Of a stretch of 64,000 bases of DNA, positions 3,739 through 7,656 are shown one piece after another (the first letter of the stretch is position 1; the number at the start of each line of letters is the position of its first letter). The DNA lies in contig NZ_CAKOET010000002.1 of the NCBI RefSeq assembly GCF_933208495.1, forward strand, positions 186,001-250,000, read 5' to 3'. Both the position numbers and the translations under genes were made by a program. Origin of the DNA: Convivina praedatoris (GTDB lineage Bacteria > Bacillota > Bacilli > Lactobacillales > Lactobacillaceae). The notes beneath the pieces were generated by a model. It was not told the DNA's origin. It did no database searches and worked only from the letters and a program-made list of their open reading frames with translations.

Positions 3739-4365
3739 TTATTTACTAAAATCAACCACTGGATTACTTTGGGCGGCTGCATCGGCTTCAAAATACTTTA
3801 ACTTTTGATGATTGGTCATTCCAGCTACTACTGAACTGGGGAAAGATACGACTTTGTCGTTGTAAGCACGAACAGCCTTATTGTACTTAAGGCGTTGATA
3901 GGTTACTCGGTTATCGGCACCCTCAATTTGAGACATTAGCGTGCTAACTTGATCACCGGACTTTAGGTTGGGGTAGTTTTCATTGATGGCTGATACCATT
4001 ACGTTTAACGCCCGCTCTTGACCTTCCATAGCGGTGGTCTTTTGGTCCTGACTGTTAGCGTTTTGGTAGTTGCTTTTTGCCTGGTTGTACTGGGTACGAG
4101 CTTCAGCAATTTTGCCATAGACGGCACTTTCCTGAGCTTGACTTCCCTTAATGGCATTTACTAAATTAGGAATCAAATCGGCTCGATTTTGGAGGGCCGT
4201 TTGCACAGAACCGGTGGCTTCATCAACGTCTTGCTGAGAACGATTCAGCCCGTTGGAAGAACCAATAAATGATGCTAGTAAAATGATCAAAACTAGGCCA
4301 ATAATGGCACTGATAATCACCGACTTCTTTTTGTAAAAGGGTTGAGAGTTGTTAATTACGTTCAT
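3739..4365 (-). CDS. lemA: LemA family membrane-anchored protein
   Basis: 208 residues from ATG 4365, chosen because AAAGGTG lies 7 bases upstream; an in-frame GTG nine bases earlier is unlikely. One N-terminal transmembrane helix (VIISAIIGLVLIILLASF) is followed by the helical LemA domain, with the signature NRADLIPNLVNAIKG and the C-terminal FEADAAAQSNPVVDF. The function of LemA proteins is not established. It is the last gene of the operon and follows the TPM-domain gene, a pairing often seen in bacteria. Confidence 0.9.
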   Translation of the reverse strand: MNVINNSQPFYKKKSVIISAIIGLVLIILLASFIGSSNGLNRSQQDVDEATGSVQTALQNRADLIPNLVNAIKGSQAQESAVYGKIAEARTQYNQAKSNYQNANSQDQKTTAMEGQERALNVMVSAINENYPNLKSGDQVSTLMSQIEGADNRVTYQRLKYNKAVRAYNDKVVSFPSSVVAGMTNHQKLKYFEADAAAQSNPVVDFSK

Positions 4366-4395
4366 AAAATTCACCTTTCAAAATGAGTATTAAAT

Positions 4396-5277
4396 TTAAA
4401 AATCAGAACCACCGCCGCCAAAGTCGCCACCGCCACCGGAATCGGTGAAATTATCACTACCACCAAAGTCACTGGAGTTGCTGTCTGACCAAGAATCGTG
4501 TCGATTACCACTACCAGAATTTAGTAGGGAACCTAACAGCAGCCACTGCCACCATGATGACTGGCCATCAACGGAAGCATAGCTATTATGAGCGTAATTT
4601 TTGTTACGCCGCATTAGCTTGCTAATGAAAAAAATAGATAGGAGGGGGAAAAGTACTACAAAGAGCAGCACCCACCCAAGGCCTAGTCCTTTAGCAGGAC
4701 TATTTTTTGCCTTAATTTGACCATCGGTGGGAATATTTTGGCAAACTTCATCAAATAATTTTATCAAACCCTGGTTAATCTGAGTATTATCACTGGATTT
4801 AAGCTGGCTACGATTTTCATTTAACAATTGATTTATTTTACCATCTGGTAAATTCGATTCAATTCCTGTACCAGTAGCCACCCGTACATTGTTTTGACCA
4901 TTATTTTTAGCAAAAACGATTAAAACACCATTATCTTGACCCTTTTTACCAGCCTGCCAAACCTGGCGTAAGGTTAGTTCATTGGTGAAACTTTTCATAT
5001 CCATACCATCAGTATTATTTACTGTGATGACTACCACTTGTGGTTGTGACTTGGTGGCCTGAAAACGCTTGGCTTGGTCAATGATATGTTCCTTACTACT
5101 AGTAGTTAAGATATTGGCGTAATCGTTGACTACGTAGGATTGTTCTGGCTTTAAGGTATCTGGGTTTTCTGCTCGGGCGATGGGATTGGCTATGTAGGCA
5201 ACCAATCCAAGTAACGCACTTAGGCTGATGATTAGTATCAGCCGGATGCTACTATTATTAATTTTAATAGATGACAT
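4396..5277 (-). CDS. Secreted TPM-domain protein (YgcG family)
   Basis: 293 residues: signal-anchor helix at ~10-35 ending in ARAENPD, a TPM domain (VNDYANILTTSSKEHI, VVVITVNNTDG, NGVLIVFAKN, VRVATGTGIES) at ~45-185, a second transmembrane helix (GLGWVLLFVVLFPLLSIFFI) at ~197-217, and a low-complexity Gly/Ser/Asp tail with FGGGGSDF. TPM domains face outward and some are linked to membrane-protein turnover or weak phosphatase activity; the role here is unknown. AGGAGG precedes the ATG. It lies between DUF915 hydrolase and lemA. Confidence 0.85.
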   Translation of the reverse strand: MSSIKINNSSIRLILIISLSALLGLVAYIANPIARAENPDTLKPEQSYVVNDYANILTTSSKEHIIDQAKRFQATKSQPQVVVITVNNTDGMDMKSFTNELTLRQVWQAGKKGQDNGVLIVFAKNNGQNNVRVATGTGIESNLPDGKINQLLNENRSQLKSSDNTQINQGLIKLFDEVCQNIPTDGQIKAKNSPAKGLGLGWVLLFVVLFPLLSIFFISKLMRRNKNYAHNSYASVDGQSSWWQWLLLGSLLNSGSGNRHDSWSDSNSSDFGGSDNFTDSGGGGDFGGGGSDF

Positions 5278-5307: not shown

Positions 5308-6162
5308 TTACTTATCGGCGCGCCGTGAACGGTTGTCATTACTTTTATTATTTAAAATATACTCCTGAATTAATTGTACAACTTCAGGATTTTCAGGGAG
5401 ATTGGAATGTTCGGCATTATCACCGGAAACGGTAATTTGAGTATACTTTTTAACTTGTTTTTGGAAAATGTATTTTCCAGAAAGGACGCTTTGAACTGGC
5501 ACAATCCCATCGTCGCTATAGTCTTCACTACCGGCAACCGAGTAAACGGTTAAGTCAGTTGGTAAATTATCACTATTATCCATCAAATCCGTCAGCATGG
5601 CAGTTTGTTTGGTGGTAGAAGATTCAGAGAAATTATAGGGTGTACCCAAAGTCATCAAAGTTTTAATGTGGAAATCGTTAATATTGTAATAATTTTCCAA
5701 GTATTCAGTCCAATCGAGACCGCCGTTAGAATGACCAATCGCTGAGAAATCACGGAAATGATAGGTTTGTTGCAAAGCATTCATCGCTGAAGAAAGCCAT
5801 TTAGCTTGACGTTTGATATTGTCATAACTATCGGAGTTATCTTCAAAGCCAATTACAATAAAAGGCTGCCGATTATTGGTTGCTAATTTACCACTATATG
5901 TATAGGAACCATCTTTATTCACTTGGAGTTTTAAAACTGGTGTTGCTGGGGTACCTTTACTTTGTTTATTGATCGAAGTAAACATGTCGTCAAATCGATT
6001 AATGGTCGCACTTGAACCAGGAATGAAGATGACCGGTGAAATTCTGGCCGTTTGGATAGCGTGGTCGTTGTGGTGTTGTTTGGTCATCCAAATTGAACTA
6101 AAAATACCAATCACAATTAATAATATAGTACTGAGGCCTAGAATGATTTTACTGGTCCGCAC
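5308..6162 (-). CDS. DUF915 alpha/beta hydrolase, membrane-anchored
   Basis: 284 residues, GTG start with AGGAGG about 10 bases upstream. An N-terminal signal anchor (ILGLSTILLIVIGIFSSI) is followed by an alpha/beta-hydrolase fold: PVIFIPGSSA as oxyanion region, GHSNGG as nucleophile elbow with the catalytic Ser, and a C-terminal DDGIVPVQS acid and AEHSNLPENP with the probable catalytic His. It looks like an extracellular lipase/esterase-like enzyme; substrate unknown. It starts two bases after the PTS EIIC stop, so the genes are cotranscribed. Confidence 0.85.
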   Translation of the reverse strand: MRTSKIILGLSTILLIVIGIFSSIWMTKQHHNDHAIQTARISPVIFIPGSSATINRFDDMFTSINKQSKGTPATPVLKLQVNKDGSYTYSGKLATNNRQPFIVIGFEDNSDSYDNIKRQAKWLSSAMNALQQTYHFRDFSAIGHSNGGLDWTEYLENYYNINDFHIKTLMTLGTPYNFSESSTTKQTAMLTDLMDNSDNLPTDLTVYSVAGSEDYSDDGIVPVQSVLSGKYIFQKQVKKYTQITVSGDNAEHSNLPENPEVVQLIQEYILNNKSNDNRSRRADK

Positions 6163-6164
6163 GG

Positions 6165-7373
6165 TCAGTCAACCTCCTTAGTCACGTATTTTAGAAATGG
6201 TCGATATATAGATAAGTTAATCGCAAAGACTAGCAAGACTGCTAGTAAACTAGGCCAATGATTTTGGCTGGCTAAGAAGCCTAATAAAAGTCGTGGTGAA
6301 TTTATTGGTACGTTAAAAATTGAAGGTTTTAGGATGTTTAATTTAATGGCAGTAAAACCAATCAGGCTTCCTATTGTTGAAGATAAAATCATCGGTACTA
6401 GCATGATCGGCCGCAAAATTATTGGTAAGCCAAATAATAGGAGCTGATTATTGTTAAATATACTTGGAATAATTGAAAACCAGCCTAATTTTTGGTACTT
6501 TTTTCGCTGATTAAATAGCAGCCAAATACTGATAACTAAGGTACTACCGGCACCACCCAAGTATGAGAAAGTTCCAAAAACACTGTATAGATTTTCTGGG
6601 TAGGGGATTGTCGCATTGACTGATTGATAGATGGCATTTAAATTTGTTGAAACTGGAGTTAAATCCGTCATATTGTTATAAATTTCAGTCGGAATACTAA
6701 TTCCCAGCCAGGGCAAAATAGGTAATAAGAGTGCAACTAACATAATGCCAAAGAAGTGTACGAAGAAGCTAGATGAGAAAAAATCCAGATAGGAACCTTG
6801 TAAAGCCTGCAATGGCAAGGCCATGTTAATACCTATTGTCAATAAAATAATTAAAGCTGCCCAAACTAAGTGAATGTAGCCATAGGGAGCTATTTTTTTA
6901 TGGAATAAATGATCTAACCAATAGTAACTTTCACTGATTAAAATAATAGTAATAAAAAAGATAATGAAATGAATAGTCGGGCGTGACTGCCACTGGAAAT
7001 TTAAGATAATGAGCAAAAAGGAGATGCTGAAGTTAATAATCAGAGGGAAAGTCGGATCGGTGACGCCTTTGATAGTTAAGTAATTTTTAGTAATTGCAAT
7101 TGTTAAAATTAAAATGACACAGTAGTCCAAACTATTGGAAATGGCCGTAATAATTTGCGGATCCACTAAATGAGAGGGCTTATAATTAAAAATTGTGGGG
7201 AATAGGCTACCAGGATTTAAAAATAAACGATCGAATAGCCGAAAATAAACAGCTAAGGATATAACCGGTAGGCTTTCTCGAAAACTTTGATATAAGCTTT
7301 GGATAATTTTGGTATGTATTAAACGTCGATCGAAGTTTAAAAAGACGGAAGTAATTTTATTCAGTATTTTGAT
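6165..7373 (-). CDS. PTS EIIC component, lactose/cellobiose family, with no canonical start codon
   Basis: A multi-spanning sugar permease. The EIIC signature is present: FGTFSYLGGAGSTLVISIW and GLPIILRPIMLVPMIL. The frame is open from 7379 down to 6165 and its upstream part clearly encodes the family N-terminus (LPVISLAVYFRLFDRLFLN, NPGSLFPTIFN), yet no ATG, GTG or TTG occurs upstream of the internal GTG at 7166. GAGGTG (7386-7381) lies 7 bases before an ATC codon at 7373-7371, which would begin (M)KILNKI; I take this as the start (402 residues). Either ATC/ATA/CTG is used or an ATG was lost. No EIIA/EIIB neighbours. First gene of the minus-strand operon. Confidence 0.75.
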   Translation of the reverse strand: MKILNKITSVFLNFDRRLIHTKIIQSLYQSFRESLPVISLAVYFRLFDRLFLNPGSLFPTIFNYKPSHLVDPQIITAISNSLDYCVILILTIAITKNYLTIKGVTDPTFPLIINFSISFLLIILNFQWQSRPTIHFIIFFITIILISESYYWLDHLFHKKIAPYGYIHLVWAALIILLTIGINMALPLQALQGSYLDFFSSSFFVHFFGIMLVALLLPILPWLGISIPTEIYNNMTDLTPVSTNLNAIYQSVNATIPYPENLYSVFGTFSYLGGAGSTLVISIWLLFNQRKKYQKLGWFSIIPSIFNNNQLLLFGLPIILRPIMLVPMILSSTIGSLIGFTAIKLNILKPSIFNVPINSPRLLLGFLASQNHWPSLLAVLLVFAINLSIYRPFLKYVTKEVD

Positions 7374-7405
7374 TTTGGTTCACCTCAAAGTCTCAGTTAC
7401 TGTCG

Positions 7406-7434
7406 TTAACATGTTTCAAAGCATATGATACAAT
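7406..7434 (+). promoter_or_regulatory. dlt operon promoter
   Basis: TTAACA (7406-7411), a 17-nt spacer and TACAAT (7429-7434) predict a transcript start near 7441 and a ~75-base leader before dltX. Only about 20 bases separate it from the Shine-Dalgarno of the divergent EIIC gene. Confidence 0.8.
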
Positions 7435-7515: not shown

Positions 7516-7656
7516 ATGTTCAAACATTTTTTGCAGCGACCCGTTACAATTTTTGTACTGCGCACGATTTTTTATTTTTTCATTATTTTGGCCTTAATTT
7601 ATCTTTATAGTTATTCCGGTGTAACCGGCGGTCACTTTATTTATAACGAATTTTAA
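7516..7656 (+). CDS. dltX: DltX, small D-alanylation protein
   Basis: 46 residues from ATG 7516 behind GGGGAG (7502-7507); an upstream in-frame ATG at 7435 sits in the promoter and is rejected. Sequence: amphipathic start FKHFLQRPVTIFVLRTIFYF, one transmembrane helix, and the conserved C-terminal tail YSGVTGGHFIYNEF typical of DltX. The family is needed for D-alanine transfer onto teichoic acids with DltBCD. First gene of dltXABCD. Confidence 0.93.
   Translation: MFKHFLQRPVTIFVLRTIFYFFIILALIYLYSYSGVTGGHFIYNEF

Follow-up and report, generated by a model that had tools for sequence, protein, structure and literature searches.

A diverged EIIC-like membrane protein gene in Convivina that probably starts at a near-cognate AUC codon

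How can a gene be translated if the beginning of its frame offers none of the canonical start codons ATG, GTG and TTG? The question is raised by a PTS EIIC-like gene of Convivina praedatoris, a member of a genus of insect-gut bacteria; it lies within a stretch of 64,000 nucleotides, the window, to which all positions refer unless a contig is named. On the minus strand, the frame is open from ACC 7379-7377, directly 3' of TGA 7382-7380, to the stop codon TGA 6167-6165, and comprises 404 codons plus the stop. A preliminary description of the window had reported this open frame without a canonical start, and the sequence bears this out: the earliest in-frame ATG, GTG or TTG is GTG 7166, at codon 72. 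The stretch that lacks canonical starts is 71 codons long, rather than the 68 first given. The same description placed GAGGTG (7386-7381) 7 nt upstream of ATC 7373-7371, which is correct. The answer that we regard as probable is that the gene is functional and uses a near-cognate start codon, most likely this AUC, recruited by a strong Shine-Dalgarno (SD) sequence. The features are collected in Table 1.

Table 1. Positions in the window of the EIIC-like gene, its start region and its neighbours.
Feature	Position	Strand	Remarks
LemA family protein	3739..4374	-	
TPM-domain protein	4396..5277	-	
DUF915 alpha/beta hydrolase	5308..6162	-	GTG start 2 nt after EIIC stop; SD within EIIC 3' end
EIIC-like membrane protein gene	6165..7373	-	402 codons from ATC, plus stop
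ATA, alternative EIIC start	7365..7367	-	Position of the orthologues' ATG, 12 codons before invariant Asp; 15 nt from GAGG
Exact 6-nt tandem repeat, CAAAATCAAAAT	7366..7377	-	Covers ATC and most of ATA
ATC, proposed EIIC start codon	7371..7373	-	9 nt after GAGG, 7 nt after GAGGTG
GAGGTGA, SD sequence of EIIC	7380..7386	-	7-nt contiguous match to the anti-SD
Short ORF, MLTTVTETLR	7380..7412	-	10 codons, ATG TTA ... AGG TGA; in EIIC frame
Promoter-like TTAACA-17-TACAAT	7406..7434	+	TG before second hexamer; 10/12 consensus positions; consensus match only
dltX, first gene of dlt operon	7516..7656	+	Divergent neighbour; upstream of EIIC in 30/30 loci tested

Judged by profile comparison, the encoded protein is a diverged EIIC-like one and not a typical member of the lactose/cellobiose type. 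It scores 25.6 bits against Pfam PF02378, under the cut-off of 30.7, and 76.6 bits against NCBIfam lacE TIGR00410, far under the cut-off of 236. Between the family profile and 3qnq_A, a solved EIIC of the cellobiose type, there is a match with E 8e-27 over profile positions 268-399, the C-terminal part. No partner EIIA or EIIB genes lie beside the gene; its neighbours are dltX/dltA and the DUF915-TPM-LemA genes. The DUF915 gene is likely to be translationally coupled to EIIC: given the placement of its SD and its GTG (Table 1), translation of EIIC may influence that of DUF915.

The genus Convivina has two named species, and the second, C. intestini DSM 28795 (contig NZ_QEKT01000003.1, an independent assembly), allows the evolution of the frame to be followed. 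The frame is open there as well and 93% identical. Its start region is identical over 81 nt, from −59 to +21 relative to ACC 7379; this stretch includes GAGGTG-N7-ATC, and C. intestini likewise lacks an ATG. The ATC codon is conserved to the depth that the two species of the genus provide. Across the whole frame, 105 of the 133 differences between the species fall at third codon positions (binomial P 5e-27). The same pattern holds for the first 71 codons (14 of 19; binomial P 4e-4) and for codons 38-70 (8 of 9; P 1e-3). Taken by themselves, the first 38 codons are weakly coding-like, third positions accounting for 6 of 10 differences; such a weak signal is usual for a variable N-terminus. For the whole gene dS is about 0.53 and dN/dS 0.06, and dN/dS for the first 71 codons is 0.11. 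Under simulated random substitution at the observed divergence, the whole frame stays open in 0.7% of runs. Even ahead of its first canonical start codon the frame is protein-coding, and it is under purifying selection. Because this coding-type evolution and a conserved membrane segment both lie upstream of GTG 7166, translation of the gene most likely begins at a non-canonical codon.

Relatives outside the genus differ at the start codon. A close relative of the EIIC gene occurs in 42 of the 398 family genomes. In each of the 30 loci checked, dltX-dltA diverge from it and the DUF915 gene comes next after it, and this unchanged synteny identifies the relatives as orthologues in place. They come from several genera, and their N-termini are homologous from an alignment-invariant Asp onward; the first conserved membrane segment is encoded within the first 71 codons. 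Every readable intact orthologue outside Convivina (28 of 28) has an ATG, whose distance ahead of the invariant Asp is exactly 12 codons in 27 and 14 codons in one; if an orthologue had several possible ATGs, the one at the 12-codon position was taken. At this position, both Convivina species have ATA (7367-7365), with ATC two codons before it. An alignment with orthologues had been proposed in the preliminary description to see whether relatives carry ATG where Convivina has ATC; relatives do have ATG, but its positional counterpart is the ATA. In two other genomes (G069; G363:C523) the orthologue is broken by stop codons, so some relatives may be able to do without the gene.

Which of the two codons is used can be approached through the SD sequence. 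The duplex of the EIIC SD with the anti-SD, calculated on the assumption of the usual 16S tail, has an energy of −15.0 kcal/mol, matched or exceeded by 20 of 782 genes, which places it in the top 2.6%. Among the 245 genes of this genome that have a single GAGG, the distance from GAGG to the start is 9 nt in 32 and 15 nt in four. Thus, geometry favours ATC, the near-cognate codon at SD distance, whereas homology favours ATA. Selection is unable to tell the two apart, because the first eight codons differ by a single change between the species. Initiation at ATA, as the direct positional descendant of the orthologues' ATG by an ATG-to-ATA change, has in its favour both the alignment and the fact that ATA is also the start codon of infC in this genome. 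Given the rarity of a 15-nt spacing, we consider this start unlikely, though the most credible of the competing explanations.

Comparison with infC lends weight to AUC. Searched for by pattern, infC was found in 19 of 21 genomes from five genera, and all 19 read GGAGG-9 nt-ATA; in the present genome the gene lies at G000:C1:253549-254118 on the plus strand. The EIIC start region has the infC layout, including the 9-nt spacer, with ATC replacing ATA.

How common such starts are in Convivina was surveyed in 826 genes that have an orthologue and coding-type differences between the two species, drawn from a nearly complete genome of C. praedatoris and about two-thirds of that of C. intestini. The longest non-overlapping frames were kept and then inspected. 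In three of the 826 genes, no canonical codon is present at the place where the protein has to begin: infC (ATA), a YitT-family gene (ATT) and EIIC. The survey misses any gene in which a non-canonical start is closely followed by a canonical codon, so three is a lower bound. The YitT-family gene encodes a membrane protein (PF02588 plus DUF2179; G000:C1:269963-270844, minus strand) and has no ATG, GTG or TTG before codon 36. It reads GGAGG-6 nt-ATT, the ATT is also present in C. intestini, and the Pfam domain begins 12 residues before the first ATG. Many short 'start-less' frames were discarded, being antisense to real genes or situated in serine-rich repeat genes at the ends of contigs. Weaker candidates from an SD scan, a GlmM-like gene among them, proved on inspection to have plausible ATG starts. 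A lipoate-ligase-like frame at about G000:C1 313276 has in-frame stops just upstream, whereas C. intestini reads on in frame; a pseudogene or a fault in the assembly may account for this.

Three other rivals to initiation at AUC were considered. Ribosomes could enter EIIC from upstream, by readthrough of the TGA from ATG 7412, by a +1 shift from GTG 7383, or by re-initiation after TGA 7382-7380. The short ORF in the leader makes this worth considering: it runs in frame from ATG 7412-7410 to TGA 7382-7380, ends on and overlaps the EIIC SD, and is identical in C. intestini. Its product could be a leader peptide, and termination beside an SD can feed re-initiation. However, ATG 7412 has no SD of its own, a counterpart was not noticed in the orthologues, and no recognised shift or readthrough signal accompanies it. 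The leader RNA folds no better than its shuffles (z −1.0). The same value speaks against an RNA structure hiding the SD, an idea that was rejected also because the partner bases ATTACTTC differ in C. intestini. The invariance of the leader has another possible source: TTAACA-17-TACAAT, the region's best promoter-like site, lies over the EIIC leader and probably belongs to the divergent dlt operon, so that part of the 81-nt identity may be due to it. A good minus-strand promoter for EIIC was not found in the region scanned. Taken together, we regard entry from upstream as improbable.

It is more improbable still that EIIC has been silenced or that its N-terminus is untranslated, be it through loss of the ATG, decay to a pseudogene, or initiation only at GTG 7166. 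The absence of a canonical start and the Pfam score under the cut-off would fit such a state. Yet both species lack the ATG and nevertheless keep a low dN/dS, in the gene as a whole as well as in its first 71 codons, and third-position differences predominate in codons 38-70 although these have no canonical start before them. An exclusive start at GTG 7166 was rejected on account of this upstream coding-type evolution, and since it would remove the first conserved membrane segment. The preliminary description had offered silencing by a single-base ATG loss as one of two explanations; the purifying selection across a dS of this size contradicts it. Its other explanation, rare ATC/ATA initiation as with infC, agrees with the conserved start region, the purifying selection, the strong SD and the shared infC geometry. 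There is a negligible chance that a sequencing or assembly error hides an ATG. The assembly is a draft, but the same bases in the independent C. intestini assembly rule out such an error, together with a recent strain-level loss.

For initiation at AUC, the following mechanism may be envisaged. GAGGUGA would recruit the AUC at the same 9-nt distance at which AUA is recruited in the infC genes of the family. Initiator fMet-tRNA would read AUC with a mismatch at the third position, and the strong SD would offset this mismatch. The yield of EIIC would then be low and would rise whenever discrimination by IF3 is relaxed, giving weak translation in step with infC. By analogy with published cases, initiation at AUC on EIIC is probably weak and IF3-sensitive, and the literature suggests that the start may throttle EIIC expression.

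As to its origin, the ancestral ATG would have been lost or displaced and would now be the ATA two codons downstream of ATC. Perhaps slippage duplicated the 6-nt unit CAAAAT, with the result that the old start came to lie farther from the SD and ATC took its place at SD distance. This duplication history is only a suggestion, as 0.28% of positions across the genome carry an exact 6-nt tandem repeat.

To our knowledge, very few bacterial genes besides infC have a documented near-cognate start; part of the reason is that annotation pipelines presuppose one of the codons ATG, GTG and TTG. The EIIC locus is a clean natural case, with ATG in every readable relative outside Convivina and ATC/ATA in both Convivina species at the same synteny. 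It lets one ask whether strong SDs buffer the loss of a start codon and whether genes that have undergone such a loss become IF3-responsive. The two-species survey adds a lower bound for the number of near-cognate-start genes (three in about 826) and a simple way of finding them. More tentatively, Convivina might possess a small, conserved group of genes under IF3 control (infC with AUA, the YitT-family gene with AUU and EIIC with AUC), in which the level of IF3 would set the translation of membrane functions and AUC would be a conserved natural start outside infC; this wider proposal we hold to be doubtful.

The known systems give the framework for these views. When a start codon is not AUG, GUG or UUG, IF3 destabilises the initiation complex formed on it, and infC autoregulates by this means (PMC5472188). 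AUC has less precedent as a start codon than AUU or AUA; Streptomyces infC does start at ATC (PMC5472188). The infC genes (AUU/AUC/AUA) share with the proposed EIIC start a near-cognate ATH codon, a strong start-proximal SD and the 9-nt spacer. They differ in that EIIC has ATC where the infC genes of its relatives have ATA, and in that the EIIC start is, as far as seen, confined to Convivina. As EIIC is a transporter and not IF3, there would be no direct autoregulation, unlike in infC.

In Staphylococcus aureus, near-cognate starts are known for infC (AUA), cvfC1 (AUU), ccpN (AUA) and citZ (AUA); infC, cvfC1 and ccpN have strong extended SDs, and in poor medium reporters for cvfC1, ccpN and citZ reached about 10% of the yield from AUG (PMC13009471). 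As is proposed for EIIC, ccpN, cvfC1 and citZ are Firmicutes genes that combine near-cognate starts with strong SD pairing, and ccpN and cvfC1 are conserved between species. They are unrelated to EIIC, however, and were established by initiation profiling and reporters, whereas EIIC is known from comparative sequence. Streptomyces sigR, whose GTC start is under experimentally proven repression by IF3 (PMC5472188), shares with the proposed case of EIIC a conserved non-canonical start outside infC; it differs in its codon and in being a sigma factor gene. E. coli pcnB, whose AUU start has been shown experimentally to limit expression (cited in PMC13009471), is a chromosomal near-cognate case like that proposed for EIIC, in another gene and with another codon. 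The best reading of the EIIC start is that it would be a device of the infC/ccpN/sigR kind, already known, on a new gene.
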